DNA of 64,000 nt from assembly GCA_902777005.1 (NCBI GenBank), contig CACYSB010000004.1, forward strand, positions 62,001-126,000. Direction: 5' to 3'. A program made the translations under genes and the position numbers. This document shows positions 3,398-51,643 of this stretch, piece by piece. Origin of the DNA: an uncultured Bacteroidota bacterium. Lineage in GTDB: Bacteria; Bacteroidota; Bacteroidia; Bacteroidales; P3. Position 1 is the stretch's first letter. Each line of letters opens with the position of its first letter. The notes below the pieces were generated by a model. It worked only from the letters and a program-made list of their open reading frames with translations, did no database searches and had not been told where the DNA came from.

Positions 3398-3401
3398 TCC
3401 G

Positions 3402-5879: not shown

Positions 5880-5890
5880 TGTTGCCGTTA

Positions 5891-8310: not shown

Positions 8311-8373
8311 TGGAGGGTGTCCGGGAAAACACAAAAATTAGCGCAAACACAATATTTCGCACACGCGAGCGTT

Positions 8374-17041: not shown

Positions 17042-17066
17042 CAGAAATAACCCACATACCGTAAGC

Positions 17067-25745: not shown

Positions 25746-25778
25746 ATATACCGACAGTTGAACCCTACCCAGCACAGC

Positions 25779-30704: not shown

Positions 30705-30712
30705 TATATTTG
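30705..30712 (+). promoter_or_regulatory. Bacteroidota-type minus-7 element for the 6869-residue gene
   Basis: TATATTTG matches TAnnTTTG and is followed by GCAGAAATAACCCACAT, exactly as after the promoter at 17034-17041. T-rich sequence lies at the minus-33 position without a clear TTTG. The element is 67 bases upstream of the ATG. Confidence 0.7.
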
Positions 30713-30736
30713 CAGAAATAACCCACATGCTGTTGG

Positions 30737-30779: not shown

Positions 30780-33700
30780 ATGATGATGCACTCTAATAAA
30801 ACATATCACGCACAACGCGCAATGGATAAAAAAAGCGTTAACAGGTTACGGTTTACAGGTTACAGGTTACAGTTTACTGTTTACTGTTTACTGCTGATGG
30901 CATGCTGTCTTCCGTTCACGGCGAAGGCCCAGCATGTCACCGTCGGTGGCAATGTCTTCGGCGGCGGCAACAAGGCTTCGGTGGCCCGCGGCACCACGGT
31001 GCTGATAAACAACGACAGTGCCTTTATCAAGGGCGACGTCTATGGCGGCGGCGCACTGGCTAAGGTGGACACGGCCATCTCATCTCTCAACCCCAGCCCC
31101 GTTCCGGCTACCTCTATCGACTCCACGCTGGTGACTATCATCCGAGGCAATGTGTGGGGCAATGTCTACGGTGGCGGCCTCGGCCAGAAGAATGGCTTGA
31201 ATGGTGCCACGAGCGACATTGAGGCCAATGTCTACGGCGGCGTGCATGTCAGCATCGGCGACACCACCATCGGTGCCTCCTCTGTAACGATTTCCGGTAA
31301 CGCATTCTTCGGCAACCACGCCAGTCTCAACGACACGACAGGCAATATCTTCGGCTGCAACAATATCAACGGCTCGCCGATGAAAGACGTGAAGGTCGAC
31401 ATCTGGCAGACGGGCCACACCGAAGACGATGTCGTGGGTACTTTCGCAGACACAGCGGCCTTCGTGACGTATTTAGGGTCCGCAGCAGCACATTCCCATG
31501 CCAAGTTCGCCATTCAAGGTGTCTATGGCGGCGGCAACAAGGCCAGCTACACGCCCATTGAGAAATCCACGGGCGTCGGCTACGACATCTCGGTCTATAT
31601 CCACAACTGCGACAACACCGTCAAGATGGTCTACGGCGGCGGCCGTTCGGCCGATGTGGGCACCACCAGTCCTTCACGCACCTCAGACACCTATATCACC
31701 GTCGACGGCGGTCGCATCGACACCATATTTTCTGGTGGCGACGGTCACCTCAAGGACGGTGGCGGAAACTACCTCTCGGCTAACATCTACGGTAACACCA
31801 ACACCGAGGTGCATGGCGGCTTCTACACCGCCATCTTCGGTGCATCGAACACCAGTGGTACCATCACGGGCGACAAGAGCGTCAGCATTGAAAACGACGG
31901 TCCCTGTAGTTCCACGCAGGACGAGCTCATAGGCTCGCTCTTCGGCGGCGGCAACCTGGCCGATATCAGCGGCGCTGTGGATCTCACCATCGGTTGTGGC
32001 GCAGGCTATTTCCACGAACTCTATGGCGGCTCCAACAAGGCCGACATCACCGGCAACGTCACCCTCACCGTCAAGGGCGGCACGTTCGACGAGGTCTACG
32101 GCGGCTCGAAGGGTGTGAGAGCACCTGTTGACTCCATCGCCGCCGACATCAGCGGCAACGTCACCCTCAACCTCTACGGCGGCAAGATTGGCGACGCCTT
32201 CGGCGGTAGCAACGCCTGTGGCAACATCGGCGGCAGCATCACCGTCAACGTGCTCGACTACGAGGTCTCCGACTGCGAGCTCGACGTCACCAACATCTAC
32301 GGCGCCGGCAACCTGACCTCATACCGTCCCACCACTCCCTCCATCACCTCGCCCACGGTCAACGTGATGCACATCAAGCAGACAGCCGGTGTGCGCGGCA
32401 ACGTCTTCGGCGGCGGCAAGGGTGTGGCCGGCGAAGATCTGGCTACCGTTAAGGCCAACCCCAAAGTAATCATCGGCTACGACAATACCACCATGTCGAG
32501 TCTCATCCCCGTCGACTATCCTGCAGGCGCTGCTTCCACCTTCAACACCGCCCCGCGTGCCTATGTCAGCGGCAACGTCTACGGCGGCGGCAACGCTGCC
32601 AAGGTGACGGGCACAACCACGGTGCTTATGCACAACGGCACCGTGGCGCATGATGTATATGGCGGCGGCAACCTGGCCAACGTGTCGGGTGCCACGGATG
32701 TGGACATCAACGGCGGTACCGTGACGCAGGATGTCTACGGTGGCGGCGCACTGGCCAACACCGGCGGCGCCAACGTCGCCCTCAGCGGCGGCACCGTGCG
32801 CAACCTCTACGGCGGCGGACTGGGACAGGCCGACGACCCCGGTGTGGATGGCGACCAAAGCATCGCCGCCTCGGTTACCGGCGCGGTGCAGGTCACCGTC
32901 AACAGCGGCACGGTCACCGACGTCTTCGGATGCAACAATATCCATGGTGCCCCGACGAGCACCGTGCGTGTCGACATCAACAACAATGTGGGCGGCAACG
33001 TCTATGGCGGCGGTAACCAAGCTGCTGCCACAGTCAGTCCGACAGTATATCTCAACAGCGGCACTGTGGCACATAATGCCTTCGGCGGCGGCTATGGAGA
33101 AACGGCCCGCATCACCGGCGACCCGGAGGTCAACCTCGTGGGCGGCACCGTCACCGGCAAACTCTTCGGCGGCGGCTCGGCGGCTCCTGTCACGGGCGAT
33201 CCCACCGTCGACGCCAGCTATGGTACCGTCGACAGTGTCTTCGGCGGTGGCCTGGGTGCCACAGCCATTGTCACCGGCGATCCCACCGTGGTGGTCGACA
33301 AAGACCCAAGCAATGCGCTGACAGTCGTCGATGTCTTCGGCGGCGGTGATGCTGCCGGCGTCACCGGCAACACCACTGTAGAACTCACGGCAGGCAGCAT
33401 CAGCCGTGCCTTCGGCGGCGGCAACGTGGCCGACATCACTGGTACCACCAGTGTTACACTTCAGGGTGCTACGGCGGCCAACATCTATGGCGGCGGCAAC
33501 CAAGCCAGCGTCAGCAGCACCACCACTGTCACCGTCAGCAGCGGCAATGCCACCACCGGTGTCTACGGCGGCTGCAACACCACGGGCAATGTAGGCGGCG
33601 ACATAACCGTCAATGTCACCGGCGGCACCGTGGGCACCAGCACCAGCGTGCGCGCCAATGGCGTCTTCGGCGGCGGCTATGGTTCCTCCACCACCACCGA

Positions 33701-36700: not shown

Positions 36701-39700
36701 CGGTGCCAACCAAGTGAACATCACTGCCGATGTCACCACCACCATCGAGTGCGGCGCCGGTACCTTCAGAAATGTCTACGGCGGCTCAAATAAGGCCAAC
36801 ATCACCGGCGATGTCACCCTCATTGTGCAAGGTGGCAACATAGGCCGTGTGTTCGGTGGCTCGAAGGGCGACCTTGCCTCGCTGGGTGGTGGCCACTCTA
36901 ATATTTCCGCCGACATTTCAGGAAGTGTCACACTGACCCTTAACGGCGGCACCATTGGCTGCGCCTTTGGCGGCAGCAACATCAACGGCTCTATCGGTGG
37001 AGACATTACCGTCAACGTCGAGAATCTGGGTGGCACCTGCCCCCTGGCCATCGACAGCGTCTTCGGCGCCGGTAACCTGACACCTTATACAGGCACTCCC
37101 ACAGTTAATATCAAACACGGCACTGTGGGTAACATTGTGGACGGTGTCGTCTTCGGCGGCGGCAAAGGTTCCACGGCCATTGTCACCGGCAATCCCACAG
37201 TGAATATCGGCGACAATATTGCTGCACACCGTGCCATTGTCACTGGCTCTGTCTTTGGCGGCGGCGACGCTGCTGCCGTCACCGGCAACACCACCGTGGT
37301 TATGAACAACGACAACAGCCAAGTCGCCAACCTCTATGGCGGCGGCAACAACATTGTGACCGACGGCGTCAGCGACAACACAACCGTCACCGTGAACGGC
37401 GGTACGGTCACCGACGGTATCTACGGCGGCTGCAACACCGACGGTACGGTGGGAGGCAACGCCACTGTCACCCTCTTGGGCGGCACCGTTGGCAGCAAAG
37501 CCGACAACGCACGCGTCTTCGGCGGCGGCTTCGGTCAGTCCACCGAGGTGGAGGGCAATGTGCACGTGACCCTCGGCAACACTGCCTGCACAGCCACACC
37601 TATCGTTTATGGTGAGATCTACGGCGGCTCGGCTCTTGGCAATGTCAACACCAAGGCTGGCGGCCACATCGACAGTCATGGTATGAACACTGTCGAGACC
37701 ACCACCATCAACCTCTTCAGCGGTACTGTAGAAGGCAATGTCTTCGGTGGCGGCCTGGGCCAGAAGGACGGCTACCAGGGTGCCTCCGGCGACATCGCTG
37801 CCCTCGTCCGCGGCAAGATACAGATCAATGTCGGCTACGAATCAGCAGGCGACTACTACGGCAATGCCGTACTAAACAAAGCCACCATCTACGGCTGCAA
37901 CAACATCAACGGCACCCCGCAGAACGACGTCTATATCGACGTCTACAAGACCTACCGCAGGGCCACCGATACGGTCGGCGCCGATGATGAAATTGCCACT
38001 TTTGCCATAGACCACATATACGGCGGCGGCAACCGCGCCGACTATGCGCCAACATACATCTACAGAGGAGATTCGGCTACCATCGCTGCTTATTTAACTT
38101 CACAAAGTATAGTAGTCAACGACTCGACTCTTCGCCCCTATGTCAAGAAGCCCCATGTCTATGTTCACGGCTGCGAAAACACCGTCTTTGAGATGTATGG
38201 CGGCGGCAACGCTGCGGCAGTGACGGGCGACAGCGTAGTCTTTGACGGCGGCCGCTACGACGTAGTCTTCGGCGGCGGCAACGGTCTTATCATACCAGCC
38301 AATGTCGGCGTGGGCGGTGTCTTCCTCGAAGGCAAGGGCGGCTTTGTCGGTTACATCTACGAACACTGTAACAAGCGCGGTGCCGTCGTTGGCAGTGTGA
38401 CCTTCATCAGCGGTAGCGGACATCCGAGTGACTGTAACAGAGGTGTGCTGAAGGTGTACAAACACTTCTGCGGCGGTAACGAGGTGGACATTATGGGCAA
38501 CTTTACCCATACGTTCACATGTGGTGAAGGTGAGTTTGGCAATTTGGATTTCGCCGAACTATATGGTGGCTGCCGACTGGGCACCACCTATGGCAACATC
38601 ACCCTGATTATCGAGGGTGGCCGATTCGGCACCATCTACGGCGGTCCCCGAGGCGACGTCGGCTTCCCTGCCTCCGTCAAGAAATTCCCGACGCAGGCCG
38701 AGATAGATGCCGACCAAGCCATTGTCAACCCGGATGACCGTAAGTTCTCACAAAAGATGCTTGATTGGTTGACTACTGAGCGTACCAAAGAGGGCGGCCA
38801 CGACTGGCGTGGCGAGGGCGGCAATGTCACCATCATCCTTAGGGGCGGCACCGTAGGTACCGTCTTTGGTGGCTGCGACCGCAACGGTAACGTCGAAGGC
38901 CGCATCACCATCATCGTCGACTCCACAGGTGACGCCTGTCCGTTGGACGTCAACACCATCTATGGCGGCGGCAACCTGGCTGTCTACAATCCTGACAGCG
39001 CTGCCACCGTGGCCAACTACGCCTTCCCCTTAATCGACCTCCAGAACGGCCATGTCAACCGCAACGTCTATGGTGGCGGCAGGGGTAGCAGCGACGCACT
39101 CACCGATGGCTTGGTCACCTCCAACCCCTACGTCCACATGCATCCCGACGTTGCCAACAACAAGAAGTTCCGCGTCGGAGGCGACATCTTTGGCGGCGGC
39201 GAGCTGGGCCAGGTGCATGGCAACACCAAGGTAGACATTGAGGAAGGTACCGTCAAAGGCTCCGTCTACGGTGCCGGTCTCGGTAACGTTGCCGACGCAA
39301 GCTTCGGTCTTGTGACCAAGAACACCTGGGTCGACATGCAAGGCGGCCAGGTGGAACGCAGTATCTATGGTGGCGGCGAGCTGGGCTCGGTGGGCACATG
39401 GACGGCCACCTATGGCGCCGGAGAGAGCCCCCTCCATGTTGAGGGCGAGCCCAAGACCTGCCAGACGGGTACCGGCGTAGCCAAGGTAACCATCTCGGGC
39501 AACAGCTTGGTGGGTGTTATCAACCAAGCCCTCATGCCCCCGCCCGACCCCGAAGAGGATGACTACGGATACATCTTCTGCGGCAGCCGCGGCGAGGCCG
39601 ACTCCATACACTACTCCACTGCCAACAAGCTCGCCGTGGTCGACAGCACCTACCTTGAGATTGGCGGCAACGCCCTCGTCACCGCCTCGGCCTATGGCGG

Positions 39701-42700
39701 CTGTGAGAACGGCCAGGTGCTGCGCAACACCATGGTCAAGATTACCGGCAACAGCCAGATAGGCGTGGGCTACCACAAAGATGCCGGCAACCATGTGTTC
39801 GACGCCAAGTACACCGCCGCGCAGTGGACAGGTGCTAACCCCGCCAACTTCCACGAGGTCTCCCACTGGCCCTACCGTGCTCCTTTCGAGGTTTATGATG
39901 CCTATGCCGATGAGGTGGGTTACGACTCCCACGGCGGCAGCACCAGTGCCACCAACGGCCACAGCTTCTACGGCAACGTCTTCGGCGGCGGTTCCGGTTA
40001 CTATGCCATCGAGCCCGACGGCGTCGACGTGCAGCCAGGCACCTGGCGCCGCTCGGCAGGCCGTGTGAACGGCAACACCCACGTCGTTGTCGACGGCGGC
40101 CATATCCTCAACAACCTCTACGGCGGCAACGAGTTGACCGACGTCCTCGGCAGCATCACCGTCGACATGAGCGGCGGCACCCTCGGTGTGCCGCGCACCG
40201 TCGACTCCATCCTGGCCCGCCCCGTCAGCTGCTACCTCTTCGGTGGCGGCAAGGGTGACGGGCGCACGTTCTTCAACAAGATGACCAATGTGCAGAGCGT
40301 CACTGTCAACGTCACCGGCGGCCGCATCTTCGGCTCCGTCTTCGGTGGCGGCGAGGATGGCCACGTGCTGGGCGACGTCACGGTCAACATCAACCTGCCC
40401 GCTGGCGACACCCTCGGCACCACAGGTACCTCCTACGTTGACGGCAACGTCTTCGGCGGCGGCCGCGGTTTCGACGGCACTGCACTTACGGCAGGCAACG
40501 TGGGCGGCAACATCACCGTCAACATCTCCTCGGGCAAGATCCTCGGCTCCGTCTATGGCGGCGGCCGTTTGGCCTCGGTGGGCTACGACTTCTGCTTCCC
40601 CAACGAAGCCTGCTACGGCCAGATGTCCTCCGACCCCGACCGCGGTAACATCACCGTCAACATCACCGGCGGCACCATCGGCAACGATGACCCCGCCGAC
40701 TATAATCTGGCCCACTCGCGTGGCGGCAACGTCTACGGCGGCTCCATGGGACGTCTCACCAAACTCGACGGCACCATGGTTCTGCCCGATTGGCACAGGC
40801 TGGGTTCCGCCAAGTCGACCACTGTCAACATCGATGGTCTCACCAATCCCATCCATATCAAGGGCAATGTCTACGGCGGCTCCGAGCTGGGCACCGTGAC
40901 CGAGGACATCGAGGTCAACATCTCCGGCAATGTCATTGTCGGTCGCAACAGCGCTGGCTCCACCAGCCACGGCAACGTCTACGGCGGCGGCTTCGGCCAG
41001 CCTGAACTGACTGCTGCACAGAGGGCCGAGGTGGGCAACGACGCCACGAGCGACAGTATCCCCACCTTCGCGGGTCTCACCGGCGGCACCATCCAGGTCA
41101 ATATCCACAGCGGCGCCATCAACAACAATGTCTATGGTGCCGGCGAGCTGGCCTCTGTGGGCACCATCGCCACCGTCACCAAGCATACCGACCCCAACAC
41201 CAGCTACTACCTCAGCTGGCCCTATGAATATACCTATAGTGGTACCTCGGGCGACGCCCGCGTGAACATCACCGGCGGCACCATAGGCTTCATCAATGGC
41301 AGCGACACCACTGGTGGCAACATCTACGGCTCGGCTCGCGGCACCGTGGGCGACCGCTACGTGACGGGACGTCTGGCTACGGCCCGCGTCACCCACGTCG
41401 ACATCAACCTGACCAACCCCGCCGACAAGATTATCGGCGACGTCTACGGCTCGGGCGAGAACGGCCACGTCTACGACTCTGCCGTCGTCACCCTCCGCAA
41501 CGGTCTCGTGCTCGGCTCCGTCTATGGCGGCGGCAAGGGTACCGACAAGTATACCACCCAGCTGAAGAACACCTCCACCGACGCCCCCTACGATGCCGAC
41601 GTCTACGACATCGTCGCCGGCAAGGTCTTCGGCAACACCTATGTGAATATCCTCGGCGGCCGTGTGGAGAAGAATGTCTACGGCGGCGGCAACCTGGCCT
41701 CCGTGGGTATTGGTAACTACAAGGACTATGGCGAGGGCAGCAATGTCTCGCAGGCCGACAGCCTCCTGGCCGAGAACTCGGGTCACTGCTATGTGACCAT
41801 CCTCGGCGGCATCGTGGGCCCCGACTCCCTCGTCAACGGCACCATCGACAGTAGTGTCTACGCCGTTACTACCGGCAATGTCTACGGCGCCGGCAAGGGT
41901 ATCGTCTTCCCCGCCGCCCCGAAGGAGGGCTATGACTACGGCCGCGACTACTTTATGGCCTGTGTTAACAAGACTACTGTCATCTTCGGCGACTCCACAC
42001 AGCGCAGCTGCGCTGCCTCCATCCTCTATCCCCAAGCCACCGGCGAGATTTTCGGCGGCGGCGAGAACGGCCGCGTCCGCTTCGACACCTACGTCCAGAC
42101 CAACCGCGGCCAGATCGGCGTGCGTCCTCGGGCCACAACTACCCCATCTAACATAGGACACTGGAACGACCGCGGCAACATCTTCGGTGCCGGCCGCGGC
42201 GAGGACAAGAACTCCGATGGCACCTACTGTCTGTCGGCAGGCCACGTCGGCCGCAACACCACCATCGACATCCTCGGCGGCCGCATCTACCGCAACGTGC
42301 AGGCCGGCGGCTCCATGGCCGCGGTGGGTCCCTTTAAGGGCCAGACCGGCGACAGCTCTCTCTGCGTCATCAATGTCCGTCTTCCCCAGGTTGACGATAC
42401 CATCGGCGCCGGTCCTAATAATAACAAGGACTTCGGCGGTTATGTCAGCGGCGGCAGCCGTGGTATCCCCAGCCCCGACGGTCACGACAGCTCGAGGTTC
42501 GCCACCTGCCACAACAGCCAAATCAACATCTATCAGGGTCGCCTCAAAAACACCATCTACGGTGGCGGCGAGAACGGCCAGATGCTCGGCAACACCGAGG
42601 TGAATATCTACGGCGGCTATATCCGCTCGGCCATCTACGCCGGCGGCAAGGGCTCGTGGAAGGCACCTGCCAGCGAACAGTACATTCCCGGCGACTACAC

Positions 42701-45700
42701 TGACGACACCCTCTCCGGCTATGTCTACGGCAACACCATGATCAACGCCCTCGGCGGCCAGCTGCCCTTCCTCTATGGCGGCTGCCGTCGCGCCAGCGTG
42801 GGCGGCAACGCCACTGTCAACATCGGCAAAGACAACGGCGACGGTACCTACAGCGGCGATGCATCCTTCATTGTCGGTAAGGATAAGGTCTACGGCGGCA
42901 ACCAGTATGCCGGTTCGCCCCGTGGCAACATCTATGTCAACGTCTACAAGACAGCACACACCATCACAGATGATGCCACCTATACTGAAGATGATGGCGT
43001 GAATGGCGCTCCCAAATATGCTATCAACTATGTCTATGGCGGCAGCTACAACTCGCCCTATCTGCCTCACGATTCCGGCCACTATGCCCAGGTGCATATC
43101 TACGGCTGCGAAAACACCATCGACACCGTCTATGGCGGTTGCGCCGCAGCCGATGCGGGTGCCAAGCCCGGCATCGGTGCCAACACCAGGCTCATCATCG
43201 ACGGTGGCCGCTTCAGCGCCGTCTTCGGCGGCGGCGACGGCACCTTCGACCGCTATCTCGGCCAAGCCGTCCCGGCCAACATCTATGGTGCTGCCATCAC
43301 CGAAATCCACGGCGGCACCATCGGCAGCCTCTTCGGCGGCAGTAACTACCGCGGTGCTGCCGACACCATCCGCCTCTCCGTCGACAACGAAGGCCCCTGC
43401 GGCGACACCGTCGAGGGCGACGAGTTCTTCGGCGGCTCCAACCTGGCAGACCTCGACAACGTCGAGCTTTCCACCACCCTGGGTTGCGGTGTGAAGTTCA
43501 GAGCTGCCTATGGCGGCTCCAACCAGGCCGACATCACCGGCAACGTCGCCCTCACCATCAAGGGTGGCGAGTTCGGCGAGGTCTACGGCGGCTCCAAGGG
43601 CGCCATCATCGCCCCCAGCGCAAGCGCTGGCATGAAGGACACCGTCAAAGCCGACATCGACGGCAACACCCACCTCACCATCCTCGGCGGCAAGATCCAC
43701 AACGCCTTCGGTGGTTCCAACATCAACGGTAACATCACGGGTACCATCACCGTCGACATCGACAGTACATACAATACCTGCGACTATCAGGTCGTCAACG
43801 TCTATGGCGGTTCCAACCTGACCCAGTACACCCCCAACGCCACCTCCACGCCCACGCCGCTGGTCAACATCCTCTGCGGCACCGTCGACAGCAATGTCTT
43901 CGGCGGCGGCAAGGGTACCAACACCGACTTCTCGGCCGGTCTCGTCACTTCCAACCCCAAGGTAACCATGTCGCAAACCGCGAAGGGCAACACCTGGGTG
44001 AAGGGTGACATCTATGGTGGCGGCGAAATGGCCTCGGTGGGAGTCTTCACCCGCAACGCCAACGACTCCATCACCGCCTCGGTGGCCGACAGCGGCAACA
44101 CCTGGGTGGCCATCACCGGCGGCACCGTGGGTCCCAGCAGTGTGTCCCCCACCGCCAATGACATCAAGGGTCACGTCTTCGGCGGCTGCCTCGGTAAAGC
44201 CGGCCATGTCGGCAACCCGGGCGACCCCGGTTACGTCAACTATGCCAACTTCGCCTACGTCAACACCGCACGCGTCGACATCAGTGGCACCACCCACGTG
44301 CGCGGCTCGGTCTTCGGCGGCGGCGAGAACGGTCACGTTTTCGACAGCACCCTGGTCAATATCGAGGGTGGCACAGTGGGTAACGGCATCTACCGTGACG
44401 AATATGCATGGCTCAACCCCATCACCGGCAATGTCTATGGCGGCGGTCGTGGTCTCGACCTCAGCACCGACCACACGCTCAACATCACTGCCGGATGGGT
44501 GCGTGGCGCCACCCACGTCCTCGTCAGCGGCGGCCACATCCACCACAACGTCTATGGTGGCGGTTCGATGGCCTCGGTAGGTCCGCGTATCTCCACATTA
44601 GGCTACAACAACACCTACGGTCTCGGCGACCACAACGGCCGCACCTGGGTTGAAGTCACCGGTGGCCTCATAGGCATCTGCATCGACTCCACCGACCGCG
44701 ACCAGAACTACTACGGCAGCGTCTACGGCGCAGGCCGCGGTCGTTCAGGTGTCGACATAGACTATGGCAACGACTGGACCGGCTTCACCTTCGTCCACAA
44801 TGCCAAGGTCATCATCAACTACTCCAACACGGCATTGCCCAACGTCTCTGCCGAAACTGCCTATGGCACCCAGCATATCGTGGGTAACGTCTTCGGCGGC
44901 GGCTTCAACGGCCATGTCAACAACAACACCTCCGTCACCATCACCCGCGGCCGCATAGGCAGCCACGGCGCCATGGGCTACGGCTCGCTCGAAGGCAACG
45001 TCTTCGGTGGCGGCTGCGGCGAGGAGCCCTTCAAAGCCTACCTCGTCCGCGACGGCTACTACATCACCAACGCCCAGCTGGCCAACGGCACCGGCAACAC
45101 CGGCATCCCCTACAGCAAGTCCGACCGCTCCGCTGTCGAAGCCTACTATAACACCCCGCGTAGTCACAACGATTCCTTGGCCGTGACCGACTCCCTCTCC
45201 CCCACCGCAGGTCTCGTCTATGGCGACGCCACAGTGCTCATCAACGGTGCGACCAAGAACGATGTCCATGTGAAGCACAACGTCTACGGCGGCGGCTCCA
45301 TGGCCTCGGTCGGCGACTTCTGGATTTATCCTGCCACGGTGGGTACCGGCGTTGACGAGACAGAAACCCTCGGCGAGGTCTATCCCCTCACGGCCAACAA
45401 GAGCGGCAGTCCCTACAACGCCCCGACCAACCATGCCGGCAGCAACACCGCCACAGGTATCTGCACCGTCACCATCACCGGCGGCACCTTCGGCACTACC
45501 GGCGGCAACAACGGCATGATCTTCGGCGGCTGCCGCGGTCTCGAGGGCAACCTCACAGACATCACCAACGCCATGGCCTACTTCAACGACGCCCGTGTCA
45601 CCCTTGGCACCACGTCGACCCTCGTCGACTACGACGACCCGCAGATACTCGTCAACGGCTCCATCTATGGCGGCGGCGAGAACGGCCACGGCACCGGCTC

Positions 45701-48700
45701 CACCTACGTCACCATCCACGACGGCAAGATAGGCAACCATGCCACCGAATACAACCGCATCAAGACCCTCGACGACAAGGTCGAGGACGGTACAGCCACA
45801 CAGGCAGAGATCAACGAGATGAACGAATTGCTCGCCTTCGTCGCCAACTGCGGCAACGTCTACGGCGGTGGCTGCGGTAGCGACAAGTACCACGACAGCG
45901 ACACCATCGTCACCCGCGTCATCGGCGGCGTCCTCGACACCCTCAAGAGCGTCGTCAACCCCGCCAACGACTCCATCGAGGCTGTCTACCGCTACAACCC
46001 CTACTGCGGCGTGGTCTACGGCAATTCTACCGTCGTCATCGACGGCGGCTACGTCGAGCACAACATCTACGGCGGCGGCTCCATGGCTAACGTCGGCCGT
46101 CGTGTGGGCCCGATGGTTCCCCACATCGACGCTGCCAGTTCCTTCGCGCTCTCGTGGCCTGTCGAGGTCACCGTGCGCCGCGGCACCGGCTACACCAACG
46201 TCGCCGTCAGCGGCAAAGCCCGCATAGGCTATAGCGGCTCTGACAACGGCGACATCTTCGGTGGTGCTCGCGGCGATGCCGGCGACCGCTACGAGATGGC
46301 CCGCTACGCCAACGTCTACTCCACCAACGTCACCGTCGACCTTCCCATGCCGGGCGGCTACGACTACACCCGCACCGAGAAGCAGATTAAGAACAACGTC
46401 ATCAAGCAGTACGGCACCCTGGTGCCCCTGGTTGCAGGTTCCGTCTATGGAGGCTCCGAGAACGGCCAGGTCATCAACAGAACCAACCTCACCCTCACCA
46501 ACGGCATCGTGGGCCACTCCCTCTATGGCGGCGGCAAGGGTAAAGGCACCTACACCACCCACACCCTCAAATACAAAGAGGACAACGCCGACGGTGTGCA
46601 CATGGCTGGCGACGACTCCACAGCCGTCATCTACGGCCTCACCTCCGGTAAGGTCTTCGGCAACACCGCCGTCACCATGACCGCCGGCCATGTGGTGCGC
46701 AACATCTACGGCGGCGGCAACCTGGGCTCCATAGGCAAGGGCAACTACGCCGGCGGCGTAGGCGACTACAGCAACGCCGGCTACGGCGAACGCTGGCCCG
46801 ACGGCAACGCGGGCATGCGCGACTCCCTCGTCAACTCAGGCCACGCCGTCGTCGCCGTCAATGGCGGCTACGTAGGCACCTTAGGCAGCACCAAGGACGG
46901 CCTGCCCACCGGCAACGTCTTCGGCGGCGCACGAGGCCAGGCGGCTCCCAACGACAACACCAGCCCCCGCTACCTCTACACTCCCGCCTACTTCCTCGGC
47001 TACGTCAACCACACCACCGTCACCATCGGCAGCAGCGTGGGCAGCAACGCCACGCCGCAGATCTACGGCTCCGTCTACGGCGGCGGCCAGGACGGTCACG
47101 TGCGCGGCAACACCGTGGTCACCGTCAACGACGGCGTCATCGGCTGCCAGTACAACTCCACCAACATAGCCCTGCAGGGCGACATCAGCGACAAGGAGAA
47201 TATCCAGTGGAAGCTCCGCGGCAACGTCTTCGGCGCCGGCTCGGGTCTCGGCCAATACACCGACCACGCCGGCAACCTGCAGTATAACAACGCCTCGGGT
47301 TCCGTCACCGACTCCACCGTCGTCTTCATCCTTGGCGGCCAGGTGGCCCGCAACGTCTACGGCGGCGGCTCCTTCGCCACCGTGGGCCCGCCCAAGATAC
47401 CGCCCATCACCGACGATCCCACCTATGCCCAGTCGCATTCGCGTGTCATCGTCAGCGGTGGCACAGTGGGCTACACCCCGACCGACCTCGACGACACCAC
47501 CACCTTCTACGGCGGCGATGTCTTCGGCGCCGGCCGCGGTCTCGCCAGCGACGACTACAAGGGCTACTGCAACGTGCCCCACACCGATGTCTACATCGCC
47601 AGCACCGTCAAGGGCAACGTCTACGGCGCCGGCGAGGATGGTCACGTCATAGGCAACACTAACGTCAAGATTACCACCGGTGCTGTTGTCGGCGTCGGCG
47701 GCACCATCTACCTTGAAGGCTCCGTCTACGGCGGCGGCAAGGGTAGCGGCGAGGCCATCGACCACGACGACAACAATAGCACTCCCGACGAGTTCCGCAT
47801 CAACAAGACCTGCGGCCGTGTGGGCGGCAACACCACCGTCACCATGGACAACGGCATGATTCACGGCTCCATCTTCGGCGGCGGCCGACTGGCACTCACC
47901 GGCGTCGGCGACACTGGCAGCTACGCCAACTTCGTCACCTCCGACCTCTACGACTCCATCAACCACGGCCTCGCCACCATCATCGTCACCGGCGGCACCA
48001 TCGGTACCACCGACCCGGAAGACCTACTGGCCTGCGACTGGAGCACCGGCGACATCATGGGCTCCGGCAAGGGCGACATCGAGCACTACGAGGATGTCTG
48101 GGCAGGCCGTGTGGCCAACGCCGTTGTCTCCGTCAGCGGCAGCCCCGTCATCCGCGGCTCCGTCTTCGGTGGCGGCGAGATGGCAAGCGTGGGCTACTGG
48201 CCCGAGGATAATGGCCACTCCTTCGTGGCTCAGACCGGTACCTCCACCGTCACCCTCAGCGGCGGCACCATAGGGCTCGACTACGAGTACACGATGGATC
48301 CCGCCCATCCTATCGGCAAATGGACTATGTACAACGACGACAAGGACACCCTCATCCACACCTGCACCGGCAACGTCTTCGGCGCCTGTCAGGGCGATGT
48401 TGACCCGTCGGCGCCCCACTGGATCTCCATGGCCCGCTCACGTCGGGCTGTGGTCAGCATCAGCGGTACGACCCATGTCAAGGGCAACGTCTACGGCGGC
48501 TCCGAGCAGGGCACTGTGACCGAGAACACACACGTCACCATCAACGGCGGCACCTTCGGCTACACCGGCGCCCTCGGCACAGGTCTTACCAAGGCCTACA
48601 CCGGTGACATCTACGCTGCTGGCTACGGCTCCGACGACCCCGCCGAGTGGGACGACAGTACGCCTAACGACTCCACCGATGCCAGCATAGCTATGGGTCT

Positions 48701-51389
48701 CGGATGGAGCACGGGCCTCCTGTCTGGCCGCACCTTCGGCAACAGCCAGGTCGACATCCTCGGCGGCACCATCCACGGCTCCGTCTACGGCGGCGGCTCC
48801 TTCGCCTCGGTGGGCGACGACAAGTCCATGAGCACCATGTACACCACCTCGGACTACCCCATCAACGGCGTCACCACCGTCAACATCGGCCTGCCCGGCA
48901 TCCCTGACGACGATGCCACACAGGCCACTGGCTCGGCCACCATCTACGGCGAGATCTTCGGCGGCAACAACTTCAAGGGCACCCCCTATGGCAACACCAA
49001 CGTGCACATCTACAAGACCGCGCACACTGTGGCCAACACCTGCCCCGCTGCCGACACCTGGGCTAGCCTCGACGGCGACGCCAGCGAGCTCACACGCGAG
49101 GATGTGCTGGCACTCGACTCCACCTCCGCCAACTTCGCCCTGCAGGCCGTCTACGGCGGCGGCAACCACGCTGCCCACGAACCCATCGATGCCGACGGCA
49201 CCACCCTCGTCTACATCCACTACTGCGACGAGAACACCGTCAAGACCATCTACGGCGGCGGCAATGCGGCCAGCACCAACAATAACCACATCATCGTCGA
49301 CGGCGGCCGCATCAAGGAGGTCTTCGGCGGCGGCAACGGCGCCGGCGCCAACAACCCGGGAGCCGACGTCAACGGCACCGCATGGACCGAAATCAAGGGC
49401 GGTCTCATCACCGATGTCTTCGGCGGCTCCAACTCCAAAGGTAACATAGGCAACACGCAACTCGATATTGCGCCCGACAACGTGAACTGCGACATCATGG
49501 TAGCCAACACCTACGGCGGCGGTAACGAAGCCGAGGGCGGCGGCGGTGTCATCAACCTCTTGTGCGGCACCAATATCGGTACCTTCTACGGTGGCTCGCG
49601 CAACGCCAACCTTGTGGGCGACGTCGTCCTCAACGTCTACGGCGGCACCTACGAGAACATCTTCGGTGGCTCGCAGGGTATTCCTGGCAAGCCCGCCGAC
49701 ATCACCGGCAACGTCACCGTCAACTTCTACGGCGGCAATGTGCAGCGCCTCTTCGGCGGCTCTGATGTCAACGGCAACATCTCGGGTACCATCATCGTCA
49801 ACGTAGACATCGATCCCGACTACAACTGTGCCGACGGCCTGCGTCTCGACACCGTCTACGGCGCTGGCCACGACGCAGCCTACACTCCCTTCGATCCCTT
49901 CCGCGGCTCGCCCACGGTCAACATCATGAACAACCGCCACCACGTCAGTGGCTCCACCGGCACCATGGCTGACTCCGCCTGGGTCAATATCATCGACGTC
50001 TTCGGCGGCGGCCTCGGTGCCACAGCTATCACCACCTCCTATCCGCGCGTGATCATCGGCGGCTTCCCCGACTCGGTGCGTAACACCGGCACCGAGCTGG
50101 CTCCCGTGTGGGAGACCGTGTATACCCGCGGCGTACACATCTTCGGCAACGCCTACGGCGGCGGCTCCTTGGCCCCCACCCATGGCAACACCATCGTCTA
50201 TGTGCGCGACGCCGTTATCGGCGAGGCCGAGCAGCAGTTCACCTCGGGTAACCTCTTCGGCGGCGGCTACGGTACCTCCTCCAAGGTCACGGGCGACACC
50301 TACGTGGGTGTCTTCGGCCTCTCCGACATCAAGGGCAGCGTCTACGGCGGCGGCAATGCCGGTATCGTCACCGGCAACACCGAGGTGGTCCTGGGCTACC
50401 AGCCGCAAATACTGCCGCCGGAATTCGTGGCCTACCTCGACACCGTCGACAAAGGTCAGCCAACACAACGAATCAGAGTCATGGGTGGCTTCCACAGCAC
50501 CACACCGGGTGTCTACTTCCGCTACACCAAGGACGGCACCATACCCACAACTTCCGACGGCAACCTCATCACCGACGACATCCTCAGCCCCACCCACGAC
50601 AAAGCCAATGACTTCGAGTTCGGTTGGAACGACTCCATCTATATGATTGCCTACCTCTGGGACGAGGCCAACAGCAAGGTCGACAGTAGCATGATACCCT
50701 CTATCGTGGGCTTCGACAGGTCCACACAGCCTATCATCAGCTTCAAGGACGGCGGCACCGACCCCGATTCCGCCATATTCAACGGCACCATAGGCGCACG
50801 TGTCTACTACACCCTCGACGGCAGCACACCCACAACGTCGAGCACCTTGTGGGGCGTCGCGGGAGAGACTCCCGGCAGACCCGTCGCCATTGGTGAGAAT
50901 GATGTCGTCAAGGCCTTTGCCTGGCAGCGCGGATGCTTCAACTCCGGAGTCTCTTTCCTCACTGCCGATCACCCCACGGTGGACAACGGCGACAACACCG
51001 CCACCTTCACCATCACCGCCAAACCTGGCGAGCGCATCATCTACACCGTCGGCACCACCGACACACCCACGCCCATCTCGCTCATGAACCAGGGGCAGCG
51101 ACCCGGCACAGGTCCCGGTGAGACCGGCATGGTGGAGAGCGTCGACGGCGAATACAGCTACACCACCAGCGCCTCCGCGGGCAGCACAGTGACCCACAAG
51201 AAGCGCGTGTACACCGACAGTAAGGGCGTCGAGAAGACCTACCGCTGGAGCGAAGTCACCGCTGCCAGCAGCGGCAACACCACTGTCACCATCACCGTAC
51301 CCACCGATTCCGACTACACCGTCAAGGCCATCGTCGAGCATGCCGGCTATGTTCCCAGCAACATCGGCGCCGCCGTGTATAGACACTAA
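30780..51389 (+). CDS. 6869-residue exported YGGG-repeat protein (probable giant beta-solenoid)
   Basis: The first ATG is at 30780. A signal peptide (YCLLLMACCLPFTAKAQ) ends near residue 50. Mature sequence begins at once with VGGNVFGGGNKASV and continues as Y/F-G-G repeats to about residue 6540. I counted 36 in the first 1400 residues, about one per 38. In simple stretches the period is 24-27 residues: VYGGGN-x-A-x-VTG-x-TTV-x(4)-G-x-V. Regular short strands with Gly turns suggest a right-handed beta-helix. Six super-repeats are described separately; between them lie ENGHV/ENGQV and GGSMASVG modules. The C-terminus (about 6545-6869) is chitobiase-like (YYTLDGSTPTTSS). No T9SS sorting domain is visible, so how it is held at the surface is unclear. 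It is flanked by other genes with the same module. Function unknown; a surface fibre, adhesin or coat is a guess. Confidence 0.85.
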   Translation: MMMHSNKTYHAQRAMDKKSVNRLRFTGYRLQFTVYCLLLMACCLPFTAKAQHVTVGGNVFGGGNKASVARGTTVLINNDSAFIKGDVYGGGALAKVDTAISSLNPSPVPATSIDSTLVTIIRGNVWGNVYGGGLGQKNGLNGATSDIEANVYGGVHVSIGDTTIGASSVTISGNAFFGNHASLNDTTGNIFGCNNINGSPMKDVKVDIWQTGHTEDDVVGTFADTAAFVTYLGSAAAHSHAKFAIQGVYGGGNKASYTPIEKSTGVGYDISVYIHNCDNTVKMVYGGGRSADVGTTSPSRTSDTYITVDGGRIDTIFSGGDGHLKDGGGNYLSANIYGNTNTEVHGGFYTAIFGASNTSGTITGDKSVSIENDGPCSSTQDELIGSLFGGGNLADISGAVDLTIGCGAGYFHELYGGSNKADITGNVTLTVKGGTFDEVYGGSKGVRAPVDSIAADISGNVTLNLYGGKIGDAFGGSNACGNIGGSITVNVLDYEVSDCELDVTNIYGAGNLTSYRPTTPSITSPTVNVMHIKQTAGVRGNVFGGGKGVAGEDLATVKANPKVIIGYDNTTMSSLIPVDYPAGAASTFNTAPRAYVSGNVYGGGNAAKVTGTTTVLMHNGTVAHDVYGGGNLANVSGATDVDINGGTVTQDVYGGGALANTGGANVALSGGTVRNLYGGGLGQADDPGVDGDQSIAASVTGAVQVTVNSGTVTDVFGCNNIHGAPTSTVRVDINNNVGGNVYGGGNQAAATVSPTVYLNSGTVAHNAFGGGYGETARITGDPEVNLVGGTVTGKLFGGGSAAPVTGDPTVDASYGTVDSVFGGGLGATAIVTGDPTVVVDKDPSNALTVVDVFGGGDAAGVTGNTTVELTAGSISRAFGGGNVADITGTTSVTLQGATAANIYGGGNQASVSSTTTVTVSSGNATTGVYGGCNTTGNVGGDITVNVTGGTVGTSTSVRANGVFGGGYGSSTTTDGNVTVNIASNAAVSGPTIYGDIYGGSALGQVSASGLLTQVNFYKGTVNGDVYGGGLGDNSHPAEVSGDVEVNIRGGVFNAANGTAGGGMVFGANNANGTPMGDVAVNIYGTDHGSGITNNEYPLPYGTITTASALATNAATQTYAIAAVYGGGNLASYTPDASKSATVHVYNCNNTIKDVYGGGNAANVGTSSVSTNTSVVIDGGRIHRVFGGGNGEVTPANTYGTATTTVNAGLIDQIFGCGNMQGSITATDLQLLKTGSCTDEVWGEVFGGANMAVISSDLSTTIGCGVGNIGDFYGGSNKASITGDVTLTIMGGTFANVFGGSKGVRGNGSTIVDTAANITGKVTLNLHGGTIGNAFGGSNQMGNITDSIIVNVLDFKTACPLNVTNIYGGGNETPYTPTDASITSPVVNVMHIAQSGGILGSVYGGGKGATAIVTANPKVTIGYDASTMSGYTDGHTVNADTLVAYVTGNVFGGGDAAEVSGNTTVIMQKNNSHTAALFGGGNVAVVTGNTSVTMDNGTTANVYGGGNQAGVTGTTSVTLADGTVSTGLYGGCNTSGTVGGNITVALNGGTVGAAASGTPGDPGYIAEQRADVFGGGYGHITYTGGNVSVTLDGATIYGDLYGGSALGSVNANTSNTTTVTLSSNGLHGTVFGGGQGSGSGASTQATTLGNVVVNYNYANTALTGIYGGANVNGDVAGDIEVNVTANVGASGVGNSVDIFGGGLGSVTTTGGDVTVTVGDNAGTYTPVVYGDVYGGSGYGDVNNESTDMTTVNILSGTVNGNIYGGGLGDTTTLGVGHYNYAAKEYGTVTVNIGSGTPDASVTGGATDLAGSATINGDVYGCNNTNGSPQNNVTVNIYATTHTPSVNTVDDNGYSIANVFGGGKNADFSASGKTATVNVYTCYNTIQDLFGGGDAAAVTGSVVNIYGGHFERVFGGGNGEITAANIGNRGITLSMHGGNIGTLVSASNERGTVGGAINVTVDNSSNCNEEVEDFFGGANQVNITADVTTTIECGAGTFRNVYGGSNKANITGDVTLIVQGGNIGRVFGGSKGDLASLGGGHSNISADISGSVTLTLNGGTIGCAFGGSNINGSIGGDITVNVENLGGTCPLAIDSVFGAGNLTPYTGTPTVNIKHGTVGNIVDGVVFGGGKGSTAIVTGNPTVNIGDNIAAHRAIVTGSVFGGGDAAAVTGNTTVVMNNDNSQVANLYGGGNNIVTDGVSDNTTVTVNGGTVTDGIYGGCNTDGTVGGNATVTLLGGTVGSKADNARVFGGGFGQSTEVEGNVHVTLGNTACTATPIVYGEIYGGSALGNVNTKAGGHIDSHGMNTVETTTINLFSGTVEGNVFGGGLGQKDGYQGASGDIAALVRGKIQINVGYESAGDYYGNAVLNKATIYGCNNINGTPQNDVYIDVYKTYRRATDTVGADDEIATFAIDHIYGGGNRADYAPTYIYRGDSATIAAYLTSQSIVVNDSTLRPYVKKPHVYVHGCENTVFEMYGGGNAAAVTGDSVVFDGGRYDVVFGGGNGLIIPANVGVGGVFLEGKGGFVGYIYEHCNKRGAVVGSVTFISGSGHPSDCNRGVLKVYKHFCGGNEVDIMGNFTHTFTCGEGEFGNLDFAELYGGCRLGTTYGNITLIIEGGRFGTIYGGPRGDVGFPASVKKFPTQAEIDADQAIVNPDDRKFSQKMLDWLTTERTKEGGHDWRGEGGNVTIILRGGTVGTVFGGCDRNGNVEGRITIIVDSTGDACPLDVNTIYGGGNLAVYNPDSAATVANYAFPLIDLQNGHVNRNVYGGGRGSSDALTDGLVTSNPYVHMHPDVANNKKFRVGGDIFGGGELGQVHGNTKVDIEEGTVKGSVYGAGLGNVADASFGLVTKNTWVDMQGGQVERSIYGGGELGSVGTWTATYGAGESPLHVEGEPKTCQTGTGVAKVTISGNSLVGVINQALMPPPDPEEDDYGYIFCGSRGEADSIHYSTANKLAVVDSTYLEIGGNALVTASAYGGCENGQVLRNTMVKITGNSQIGVGYHKDAGNHVFDAKYTAAQWTGANPANFHEVSHWPYRAPFEVYDAYADEVGYDSHGGSTSATNGHSFYGNVFGGGSGYYAIEPDGVDVQPGTWRRSAGRVNGNTHVVVDGGHILNNLYGGNELTDVLGSITVDMSGGTLGVPRTVDSILARPVSCYLFGGGKGDGRTFFNKMTNVQSVTVNVTGGRIFGSVFGGGEDGHVLGDVTVNINLPAGDTLGTTGTSYVDGNVFGGGRGFDGTALTAGNVGGNITVNISSGKILGSVYGGGRLASVGYDFCFPNEACYGQMSSDPDRGNITVNITGGTIGNDDPADYNLAHSRGGNVYGGSMGRLTKLDGTMVLPDWHRLGSAKSTTVNIDGLTNPIHIKGNVYGGSELGTVTEDIEVNISGNVIVGRNSAGSTSHGNVYGGGFGQPELTAAQRAEVGNDATSDSIPTFAGLTGGTIQVNIHSGAINNNVYGAGELASVGTIATVTKHTDPNTSYYLSWPYEYTYSGTSGDARVNITGGTIGFINGSDTTGGNIYGSARGTVGDRYVTGRLATARVTHVDINLTNPADKIIGDVYGSGENGHVYDSAVVTLRNGLVLGSVYGGGKGTDKYTTQLKNTSTDAPYDADVYDIVAGKVFGNTYVNILGGRVEKNVYGGGNLASVGIGNYKDYGEGSNVSQADSLLAENSGHCYVTILGGIVGPDSLVNGTIDSSVYAVTTGNVYGAGKGIVFPAAPKEGYDYGRDYFMACVNKTTVIFGDSTQRSCAASILYPQATGEIFGGGENGRVRFDTYVQTNRGQIGVRPRATTTPSNIGHWNDRGNIFGAGRGEDKNSDGTYCLSAGHVGRNTTIDILGGRIYRNVQAGGSMAAVGPFKGQTGDSSLCVINVRLPQVDDTIGAGPNNNKDFGGYVSGGSRGIPSPDGHDSSRFATCHNSQINIYQGRLKNTIYGGGENGQMLGNTEVNIYGGYIRSAIYAGGKGSWKAPASEQYIPGDYTDDTLSGYVYGNTMINALGGQLPFLYGGCRRASVGGNATVNIGKDNGDGTYSGDASFIVGKDKVYGGNQYAGSPRGNIYVNVYKTAHTITDDATYTEDDGVNGAPKYAINYVYGGSYNSPYLPHDSGHYAQVHIYGCENTIDTVYGGCAAADAGAKPGIGANTRLIIDGGRFSAVFGGGDGTFDRYLGQAVPANIYGAAITEIHGGTIGSLFGGSNYRGAADTIRLSVDNEGPCGDTVEGDEFFGGSNLADLDNVELSTTLGCGVKFRAAYGGSNQADITGNVALTIKGGEFGEVYGGSKGAIIAPSASAGMKDTVKADIDGNTHLTILGGKIHNAFGGSNINGNITGTITVDIDSTYNTCDYQVVNVYGGSNLTQYTPNATSTPTPLVNILCGTVDSNVFGGGKGTNTDFSAGLVTSNPKVTMSQTAKGNTWVKGDIYGGGEMASVGVFTRNANDSITASVADSGNTWVAITGGTVGPSSVSPTANDIKGHVFGGCLGKAGHVGNPGDPGYVNYANFAYVNTARVDISGTTHVRGSVFGGGENGHVFDSTLVNIEGGTVGNGIYRDEYAWLNPITGNVYGGGRGLDLSTDHTLNITAGWVRGATHVLVSGGHIHHNVYGGGSMASVGPRISTLGYNNTYGLGDHNGRTWVEVTGGLIGICIDSTDRDQNYYGSVYGAGRGRSGVDIDYGNDWTGFTFVHNAKVIINYSNTALPNVSAETAYGTQHIVGNVFGGGFNGHVNNNTSVTITRGRIGSHGAMGYGSLEGNVFGGGCGEEPFKAYLVRDGYYITNAQLANGTGNTGIPYSKSDRSAVEAYYNTPRSHNDSLAVTDSLSPTAGLVYGDATVLINGATKNDVHVKHNVYGGGSMASVGDFWIYPATVGTGVDETETLGEVYPLTANKSGSPYNAPTNHAGSNTATGICTVTITGGTFGTTGGNNGMIFGGCRGLEGNLTDITNAMAYFNDARVTLGTTSTLVDYDDPQILVNGSIYGGGENGHGTGSTYVTIHDGKIGNHATEYNRIKTLDDKVEDGTATQAEINEMNELLAFVANCGNVYGGGCGSDKYHDSDTIVTRVIGGVLDTLKSVVNPANDSIEAVYRYNPYCGVVYGNSTVVIDGGYVEHNIYGGGSMANVGRRVGPMVPHIDAASSFALSWPVEVTVRRGTGYTNVAVSGKARIGYSGSDNGDIFGGARGDAGDRYEMARYANVYSTNVTVDLPMPGGYDYTRTEKQIKNNVIKQYGTLVPLVAGSVYGGSENGQVINRTNLTLTNGIVGHSLYGGGKGKGTYTTHTLKYKEDNADGVHMAGDDSTAVIYGLTSGKVFGNTAVTMTAGHVVRNIYGGGNLGSIGKGNYAGGVGDYSNAGYGERWPDGNAGMRDSLVNSGHAVVAVNGGYVGTLGSTKDGLPTGNVFGGARGQAAPNDNTSPRYLYTPAYFLGYVNHTTVTIGSSVGSNATPQIYGSVYGGGQDGHVRGNTVVTVNDGVIGCQYNSTNIALQGDISDKENIQWKLRGNVFGAGSGLGQYTDHAGNLQYNNASGSVTDSTVVFILGGQVARNVYGGGSFATVGPPKIPPITDDPTYAQSHSRVIVSGGTVGYTPTDLDDTTTFYGGDVFGAGRGLASDDYKGYCNVPHTDVYIASTVKGNVYGAGEDGHVIGNTNVKITTGAVVGVGGTIYLEGSVYGGGKGSGEAIDHDDNNSTPDEFRINKTCGRVGGNTTVTMDNGMIHGSIFGGGRLALTGVGDTGSYANFVTSDLYDSINHGLATIIVTGGTIGTTDPEDLLACDWSTGDIMGSGKGDIEHYEDVWAGRVANAVVSVSGSPVIRGSVFGGGEMASVGYWPEDNGHSFVAQTGTSTVTLSGGTIGLDYEYTMDPAHPIGKWTMYNDDKDTLIHTCTGNVFGACQGDVDPSAPHWISMARSRRAVVSISGTTHVKGNVYGGSEQGTVTENTHVTINGGTFGYTGALGTGLTKAYTGDIYAAGYGSDDPAEWDDSTPNDSTDASIAMGLGWSTGLLSGRTFGNSQVDILGGTIHGSVYGGGSFASVGDDKSMSTMYTTSDYPINGVTTVNIGLPGIPDDDATQATGSATIYGEIFGGNNFKGTPYGNTNVHIYKTAHTVANTCPAADTWASLDGDASELTREDVLALDSTSANFALQAVYGGGNHAAHEPIDADGTTLVYIHYCDENTVKTIYGGGNAASTNNNHIIVDGGRIKEVFGGGNGAGANNPGADVNGTAWTEIKGGLITDVFGGSNSKGNIGNTQLDIAPDNVNCDIMVANTYGGGNEAEGGGGVINLLCGTNIGTFYGGSRNANLVGDVVLNVYGGTYENIFGGSQGIPGKPADITGNVTVNFYGGNVQRLFGGSDVNGNISGTIIVNVDIDPDYNCADGLRLDTVYGAGHDAAYTPFDPFRGSPTVNIMNNRHHVSGSTGTMADSAWVNIIDVFGGGLGATAITTSYPRVIIGGFPDSVRNTGTELAPVWETVYTRGVHIFGNAYGGGSLAPTHGNTIVYVRDAVIGEAEQQFTSGNLFGGGYGTSSKVTGDTYVGVFGLSDIKGSVYGGGNAGIVTGNTEVVLGYQPQILPPEFVAYLDTVDKGQPTQRIRVMGGFHSTTPGVYFRYTKDGTIPTTSDGNLITDDILSPTHDKANDFEFGWNDSIYMIAYLWDEANSKVDSSMIPSIVGFDRSTQPIISFKDGGTDPDSAIFNGTIGARVYYTLDGSTPTTSSTLWGVAGETPGRPVAIGENDVVKAFAWQRGCFNSGVSFLTADHPTVDNGDNTATFTITAKPGERIIYTVGTTDTPTPISLMNQGQRPGTGPGETGMVESVDGEYSYTTSASAGSTVTHKKRVYTDSKGVEKTYRWSEVTAASSGNTTVTITVPTDSDYTVKAIVEHAGYVPSNIGAAVYRH
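30844..30892 (+). repeat. Seven-copy heptanucleotide repeat in the signal-peptide codons
   Basis: Seven consecutive units of consensus G(G/T)TTAC(A/T/G); the last three are all GTTTACT. They encode residues 22-38 (LRFTGYR then LQFTVYC), leading into the hydrophobic core. Because seven is not a multiple of three, gain or loss of a unit would shift the frame of the whole gene. Confidence 0.95.
31341..32490 (+). repeat. YGGG super-repeat copy 1 (residues 188-570)
   Basis: Ordered blocks: FGCNNINGSP, VYIHNCDNTVKMVYGGG, VDGGRIDTIF, GPCSSTQDE, TIGCGAG-YF, LYGGSNKADITGNVTLT, VYGGSKG, AFGGSNACGNIGGSITVNV, DVTNIYGAGNLTSYRP and VFGGGKG ending in NPKVIIG. The same order recurs in five later copies. Confidence 0.85.
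33963..35060 (+). repeat. YGGG super-repeat copy 2 (residues 1062-1427)
   Basis: Blocks in the same order: FGANNANGTP, VHVYNCNNTIKDVYGGG, IDGGRIHRVFGGGNG, GSCTDEVWGEVFGGAN, TIGCGVGNIGDFYGGSNK, VFGGSKG, AFGGSNQMGNI, ACPLNVTNIYGGGN and VYGGGKG ending in NPKVTIG. Confidence 0.85.
36222..37220 (+). repeat. YGGG super-repeat copy 3 (residues 1815-2147)
   Basis: Blocks: YGCNNTNGSP, VNVYTCYNTIQDLFGGG, IYGGHFERVFGGGNG, NCNEEVEDFFGGAN, TIECGAGTFRNVYGGSNK, VFGGSKG, AFGGSNINGSIGGDITVNV, CPLAIDSVFGAGNLTPYT and VFGGGKG ending in NPTVNIG. It is the shortest copy. Confidence 0.85.
37881..39140 (+). repeat. YGGG super-repeat copy 4 (residues 2368-2787)
   Basis: Blocks: YGCNNINGTP, VYVHGCENTVFEMYGGG, FDGGRYDVVFGGGNG, SDCNRGVLK with FCGGNEVDI, FTCGEGEF, LYGGCRLG, IYGGPRG, VFGGCDRNGNVEGRITI, ACPLDVNTIYGGGNLAVY and VYGGGRG. 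It is the longest copy, with an inserted charged stretch (about 38690-38815) between the seventh and eighth blocks. Confidence 0.8.
42882..43970 (+). repeat. YGGG super-repeat copy 5 (residues 4035-4397)
   Basis: Blocks: YGGNQYAGSP, VHIYGCENTIDTVYGGC, IDGGRFSAVFGGGDG, GPCGDTVEGDEFFGGSN, TLGCGVKFRAAYGGSNQ, VYGGSKG, AFGGSNINGNITGTITVDI, TCDYQVVNVYGGSNLTQYTP and VFGGGKG ending in NPKVTM. Confidence 0.85.
48948..50063 (+). repeat. YGGG super-repeat copy 6 (residues 6057-6428)
   Basis: Blocks: FGGNNFKGTP, VYIHYCDENTVKTIYGGG, VDGGRIKEVFGGGNG, NCDIMVANTYGGGN, LLCGTNIGTFYGGSRN, IFGGSQG, LFGGSDVNGNISGTIIVNV, NCADGLRLDTVYGAGHDAAYTP and VFGGGLG ending in YPRVIIGG. It is the last large block before the C-terminal domain. 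Confidence 0.82.
50401..51389 (+). other. C-terminal chitobiase-like region of the 6869-residue protein
   Basis: The YGGG repeats stop near VYGGGNAGIVTGNTEV. The rest has about three repeats of the YTTDG type: FRYTKDGTIPTTSD, YYTLDGSTPTTSS and a more altered IIYTVGTTDTPTP. The same fold occurs in tandem in the paralog at 20589. No T9SS type A or B motif follows; the protein ends IGAAVYRH. Confidence 0.7.
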
Positions 51390-51546: not shown

Positions 51547-51554
51547 TAACTTTG
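51547..51554 (+). promoter_or_regulatory. Bacteroidota-type minus-7 element for the 4107-residue gene
   Basis: TAACTTTG matches TAnnTTTG 89 bases upstream of the ATG. No clear minus-33 TTTG is seen at the right distance. The leader does not carry the GCAGAAATAACCC box of the other two promoters. Confidence 0.6.
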
Positions 51555-51643
51555 CCTATTGGACAAGACTATGCAGCGCAGCATACAGTATTATATGCCA
51601 GATAAATGCATAGTGTTGGCCGCTAAAGTTAATTGTAGAGAAC

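Follow-up and report, generated by a model that had tools for sequence, protein, structure and literature searches.

A 6869-residue YGGG-repeat protein of an uncultured Bacteroidota bacterium is predicted to be a beta-solenoid rod and may be the shaft of a modular surface fibre

INTRODUCTION

Solenoid fibres and giant adhesins are, as such, already known. In curli, the subunit CsgA is small and its curlin repeats are about 23 residues long, and the part of the curli study cited here states that imperfect or blocked ends prevent other beta-solenoid proteins from polymerising; in that part, the authors' own search yielded no other polymerising beta-solenoid proteins (PMC10192328). In Apilactobacillus kunkeei, the consecutive genes Giant1-5 encode extracellular proteins of 3,000-8,000 residues with solenoid parts and show within-gene sequence exchange, according to the excerpt used here (PMC12863079). 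We describe a giant repeat protein, F, and its neighbours A to E and G, all encoded on one strand of a 64,000-nucleotide stretch of DNA (the window).

RESULTS

A first-pass annotation had reported a 20.6-kb open frame for F, and its coordinates, strand and length were exact (Table 1). The 6869 codons contain no internal stop, and the remaining two plus-strand frames contain 130 and 147. As read by eye, the putative signal peptide of F ends in AKA before a Q, and Q directly follows the export site in all six products of the locus, as expected from the Q rule of Bacteroidetes. A change of one unit in the 7-bp array within the signal-peptide codons would shift the frame, so the array might switch F on and off. 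This array (GGTTACN type) encodes the core of the signal peptide, and its heptamer pattern has 69 matches in the genome, the F site included, and 0 in the control. The element TANNTTTGC, which we take to be of the Bacteroidetes -7 promoter type, precedes B, F and G; its six matches in the window are close to the 4.2 expected by chance, which makes it weak promoter evidence by itself. Antisense frames of 1838, 982 and 648 aa mirror F (for example, 39030-44546, minus strand), and the full antisense frame holds merely 29 stops in 6869 codons; this scarcity is a shadow of codon use and repeats.

Table 1. Features of the locus, in window coordinates
Feature	Position	Strand	Remarks
A, fn3 protein with type B secretion tail	8317-16983	+	2888 aa; CHU_C 49.6 bits
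TANNTTTGC promoter-like element	17034-17042	+	78 bp upstream of B
B, E-type cap protein, end in mid-repeat	17112-20540	+	listed frame from 16854; likely start 17112
C, E-type cap protein, four chitobiase-type domains at front, end in mid-repeat	20589-25745	+	
D, between C and E	25758-26936	+	392 aa; weak Y1_Tnp match
E, E-type cap protein, M26_N-like N-terminal part	26943-30419	+	PF05342, 44.7 bits
Last 19 codons of E, unfinished repeat FGGG...VTIQD	30360-30416	+	
TANNTTTGC promoter-like element	30705-30713	+	75 bp upstream of F
F, giant YGGG-repeat protein, proposed shaft	30780-51389	+	6869 aa, stop-free frame
Signal peptide of F	30780-30929	+	judged by eye; predicted mature start Q51; alternative ATG 30822
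7-bp tandem array within signal-peptide codons of F	30837-30891	+	sequence repeat
YGGG-repeat region of F	30957-50414	+	first anchor residue 60, last anchor 6522
Regular folded slice, F 590-1000	32547-33779	+	model m75513f685077; AlphaFold2 pLDDT 90.9, pTM 0.90
Irregular folded slice, F 4860-5330	45357-46769	+	model m09a16991f662; AlphaFold2 pLDDT 80.0, pTM 0.83
Fn3_assoc / CHB_HEX_C_1 domain close to C-terminus of F	50778-50954	+	Pfam 37.5 and 34.1 bits, above cut-off
TANNTTTGC promoter-like element	51547-51555	+	97 bp upstream of G
G, proposed anchor, YGGG stretch at residues 485-1914, type IX secretion tail	51644-63967	+	4107 aa
Por_Secre_tail of G	63755-63958	+	44.6 bits

The strict motif [YF]GG[GSC] occurs 123 times in F against 4.3 times in shuffles. 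With the looser [YF]G[GA][GSCAN], 148 motifs were counted, 36 of them within the first 1400 residues; the latter number is that of the first-pass annotation, whose extrapolation to about 170 overshot the total. A 26-position repeat profile, built from F and run on F, three shuffles and reversed F, marked 74 stretches in F (1704 of 6869 residues) and 0 in the shuffles or the reversed protein. The period of 24-27 residues described earlier is present but is a minority pattern, since only 30 of 147 successive spacings measure 23-28 residues, and spacings of 35-70 residues are common in the later part. The first block of alignment profile A1 matched F six times, starting near residues 48, 899, 1689, 2196, 3910 and 5983 (converted from genome positions), which indicates a higher order of repetition with units several hundred residues long. 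At a rise of 0.48 nm per solenoid turn, the 151 anchors across 6462 residues would correspond to about 150-250 turns and 72-119 nm, so the previous figure of several hundred turns was too high.

Two slices, together 13% of F, were folded with AlphaFold2. The regular slice gave a confident all-beta model, and the irregular slice gave a weaker beta model with inserts, its pLDDT falling below 50 at slice residues 1-31 and 183-209. Neither was predicted as disordered or as a known non-solenoid fold: the nearest solved structures to both were beta-solenoids, with curli CsgA ranked first and SRRP and Ag43 among the neighbours. On these models, F is predicted to fold as a long beta-solenoid rod, as the first-pass annotation had supposed.

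In Pfam (F searched in three pieces, matches up to E 1 considered), the YGGG repeat matched no family, and the Fn3_assoc/CHB_HEX_C_1 domain was the sole named one. NCBIfam gave no match, PHROGs gave one chance-level row and nothing else, PDB-sequence profiles gave no match at E 0.1, and no treatment of the repeat was found in the literature searched. Thus, the earlier statement that the repeat belongs to no named family stands for these four libraries, and a strong match to a characterised family appeared in none of them. The family is undescribed in the sense that none of the libraries searched names it, but its members are public by the hundred, unnamed or under a chitobiase label. In the protein database, at least 698 of 702 scored candidates were relatives of a 1311-residue stretch of F, at least 858 of 7992 of a 411-residue piece, and at least 2288 of 7995 of E. 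The 120 listed giant relatives of F are 3818-7345 aa long. Relatives, where named, go by "hypothetical protein" or "chitobiase/beta-hexosaminidase C-terminal domain-containing protein," and their taxa are Bacteroidales, Bacteroidaceae and Prevotella. F is a member of a real, very large, unnamed family of predicted beta-solenoid proteins.

A genome scan for YGGG loci returned at least 590 pattern matches and at least 488 relatives, and 72 loci were kept. Most of these listed loci come from metagenome genomes that bear the label Bacteroidales, Bacteroidaceae, Prevotellaceae or Prevotella, with the rumen and the herbivore gut as frequent sources; four bear the label Bacilli, Tenericutes or Clostridia. 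Within the order, the spread of F-type sequence is patchy: F 1-600 occurs in 17 of the 37 genomes that belong to the window's genus, against 0 of 24 from elsewhere in the order, and a search of 198 genomes across the order with profile A1 gave matches in 5, its own genome among them. In three Firmicutes-labelled loci (L097, L105 and L109), the YGGG protein is 2717-3230 aa long. Beyond its last YGGG, about 900 residues form a stretch common to the three, and it shares a cassette with small exported AWFTSN proteins that are 40-43% identical among the loci. In L105 and L109, the cassette region further encodes a signal peptidase (SipW-like) over the TIGR02228 cut-off. The cassette has the look of TasA/SipW matrix operons, with the family match below the cut-off.

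The order cap-F-G on one strand recurs in seven of nine same-genus loci (G023, G022, G015, G012, G009, G029 and G025); in G002, F runs to the contig end, and in G016, F and G lie on opposite strands. Among the 37 genomes of the genus, F occurs in 17, G in 13 and both in 12 (p 5.7e-5), and F and E occur together in 13 (p 9e-4). E and G occur together in 8 of these genomes, with no significant association (p 0.19); E was counted as present at E <1e-30, with three weak rows dropped. A lipoprotein-like gene follows G on its 3' side, encoding 792 aa in the window's genome and 756-881 aa in G023, G015, G012, G009, G029 and G025; Pfam finds at most a GLUG motif in it (window genome's copy). This conserved gene is found after G at L130:10578-12929 and L043:156-2534. 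A has a counterpart in the same place in G023, and the caps B, C and E are all M26_N-like. D is a transposase-like gene with an HLH motif, and relatives of 53-71% identity lie in 4 of the 72 listed loci (L056, L090, L093 and L113). Further upstream on the minus strand are a tyrosine-kinase-like capsule protein (3402-5879), whose YGYGYG tail is encoded by a degenerate tandem repeat (3470-3563), and a 354-aa beta-eliminating lyase (tryptophanase-like; 6896-7960) with a divergent end, which has 458 aa in several same-genus relatives adjoining the same locus.

A further point, absent from the first-pass annotation, is that F is one segment of a multigene set whose members end and start in register with the repeat. 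Of 120 listed E relatives, 113 stop 16-28 residues past the last YGGG anchor, 69 of them at 18-20, against 30% of random cuts in giants, and 53 of 71 closed YGGG frames in the 72 listed loci end at 16-26 against 21% expected (the sequences in these and the fusion counts are related, and the counts are not independent). The first YGGG of F lies 9 residues after its signal peptide, which together with the 19 residues at the end of E makes 28. In the listed loci, 27 frames have an early YGGG and an export-like site, with 8-17 residues between the two in 15 (exactly 8 in six); the other frames have a misplaced site or a different N-terminal domain. Split caps (27 frames in 18 listed loci) end 18-27 residues past the last anchor in 19 cases and at 33-51 in 8, and three caps beside F without an E-domain match (G009, G025 and G012) have the common end too. 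The C-terminus is likewise open, at 16-28 past the last anchor, in 59 of the 120 listed giants; the rest end otherwise.

Cap and shaft form one protein in 24 of the 72 listed loci, L059 and L107 being near-copies; the 26-residue spacing is kept at the join in 16 of these and not in 7. In G011, of the same genus, a single 7795-aa frame joins a cap domain (34-38% identity to B, C and E), a YGGG part and a G-like part (residues 4976-7795 match G 1274-4107 at 31-36% identity). It ends in a Por_Secre_tail (42.9 bits) and is followed by a 783-aa gene with 34% identity to the window's 792-aa gene. Since the frame has only 19 strict YGGG motifs, the long shaft is probably what F-bearing species added or kept between cap and G.

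We tentatively propose, at somewhat less than even confidence, that F is the shaft of a modular surface fibre, docked on the caps B, C and E and held at the surface through G. The beta-solenoid shaft would dock in register on the open C-terminal end of the caps and would be retained at the cell surface via the neighbouring G with its type IX secretion tail, giving a modular rod of cap, shaft and anchor docked end to end. The repeat, the gene order, the constant cut point at cap ends and shaft starts, the natural fusions, the tail of G, and the translocon and sortase in the same genome are observed; the export of E and F, the docking of separate chains and the attachment to G are inferences, and the fibre may serve in adhesion or in a matrix between cells. 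The C-terminus of F is a chitobiase-type domain, so the contact of F with G would not, as far as seen, be made by solenoid stacking. Against the model stand the tail-less E and F, the E-G value of p 0.19, the opposite strands in G016, 7 of the 24 fusions and 8 of the 27 split caps, and an ordinary domain boundary could explain the constant end of the caps as well. A bolder version is a noncovalent megafibre in which open-ended caps, shafts and a tailed anchor stack in register into one continuous beta-solenoid, the type IX machinery draws out the entire stack by the one tail of G, and species alter length and tip by splitting, fusing or adding segments at one phase of the 26-residue repeat. 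Such a polymer would function like curli while consisting of unlike giant parts; we consider it speculative and give it a low probability.

Somewhat less probable, in our view, is that E, F and G each act alone as giant beta-solenoid adhesins or receptors whose repeat is shared by descent, their ends reflecting turn closure with no docking. Domain ends often fall at complete turns, whereas the caps break off after about 19 residues of a 26-residue repeat, and F supplies the missing 8-9. The several N-terminal types among the caps and the self-standing adhesins SRRP and Ag43 among the structural neighbours agree with separate proteins; the frequent cap-shaft and cap-solenoid-G fusions do not.

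The genome holds SprA, PorU and Por_Secre_tail at 31 places (28 over the cut-off), and G, with its C-terminal sorting domain and the translocon in the genome, qualifies as type IX cargo. In Pfam and NCBIfam searches, no C-terminal sorting domain was found on F, and B, C, E and F have signal peptides with no secretion tail; among precomputed domains, PF18962 occurs in 0 of 120 listed giants and 0 of 120 listed E relatives. In the part cited here of the work on translocon structures (PMC10994853), substrates are bound by their tail, which leaves a tail-less partner with no known route. Our guess is that G carries B, C, E and F outward, and this step is the weakest link of the fibre model.

The same absence of tails would fit a periplasmic location of F and the caps, which would serve there as a long scaffold or spacer while G and A alone reach the surface. 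We find this improbable, because the periplasm would need to accommodate a rod of 72-119 nm lengthwise, the G011 chain combines cap and solenoid parts with a secretion tail, and an outer membrane is absent from the Firmicutes relatives. A calcium- or ice-binding beta-roll, as in the Marinomonas adhesin, is highly improbable: the 6869 residues of F contain 0 GTGND motifs (shuffled, 0.1) and 2 RTX nonapeptides (shuffled, 0.7), and neither Pfam nor NCBIfam gave an RTX family match.

The frame itself was compared with that of G023, a separate assembly of the same genus, in which one 6385-aa frame is 64% identical to F 587-6548 and collinear with it. The alignment covers 5738 codons, with a dN of 0.20 and a dS of 0.42. 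Divided into 12 bins of 500 codons, it shows dN as the lower value in 11; the last, short bin had a dN of 0.495 and a dS of 0.466. The dS per 500 codons ranged from 0.04 to 1.09, and this unevenness within one gene suggests that segments of F have been exchanged between species as a mosaic. Repeats are easily misassembled in genomes built from short-read metagenomes, and several relatives have shorter or split versions, but the collinear G023 frame, the dN/dS pattern and the at least 698 giant relatives make it hardly credible that a collapsed repeat produced the frame through faulty assembly or gene calling.

DISCUSSION

If the fibre model is true, the statement on solenoid ends in the cited part of PMC10192328 would meet a counter-example in these open ends with their constant phase. 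Very long rods would then be made from open-ended solenoids by thousands of proteins of a family that has no name and is seen mostly in Bacteroidales metagenome genomes from gut and rumen, and the tail-less segments question what the type IX machine can carry. The natural fusions make docking testable with short pieces.

The Marinomonas antifreeze adhesin region IV (3p4g) has a calcium motif that is missing from F. Compared with the Ag43 autotransporter and SRRP adhesins, F lacks an autotransporter barrel and a sequence-family match in Pfam and NCBIfam. For two-partner secretion adhesins, a search of the genome for a TpsB (ShlB) transporter gave no match, and its control matched nowhere. The Por_Secre_tail of type IX cargo with a type A tail is present on G and on the G011 fusion and absent from F, B, C and E. 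F resembles curli CsgA (Pontibacter korlensis, 8c50) in the beta-solenoid fold, which for F is predicted, and the constant ends and the fusions bear indirectly on a head-to-tail polymer of separate subunits. However, the curlin family gave no Pfam match to F (E up to 1, three pieces), the CsgG pore was found in 0 of 1 genome (control positive in 4 of 14), and the window's subunits are of 1-7 kaa, of different kinds and beside type IX secretion cargo. The proposed fibre would function in the manner of curli, although these tests do not place it within curli. With Giant1-5, the locus shares consecutive genes, giant size, solenoid parts and, apparently, sequence exchange within genes. The host of those proteins is Gram positive, unlike the window's organism, and in the excerpt cited (PMC12863079), Giant1-3 have an alpha-helical long part, with the solenoid confined to a short domain at the N-terminus, whereas in F the solenoid is the long part.
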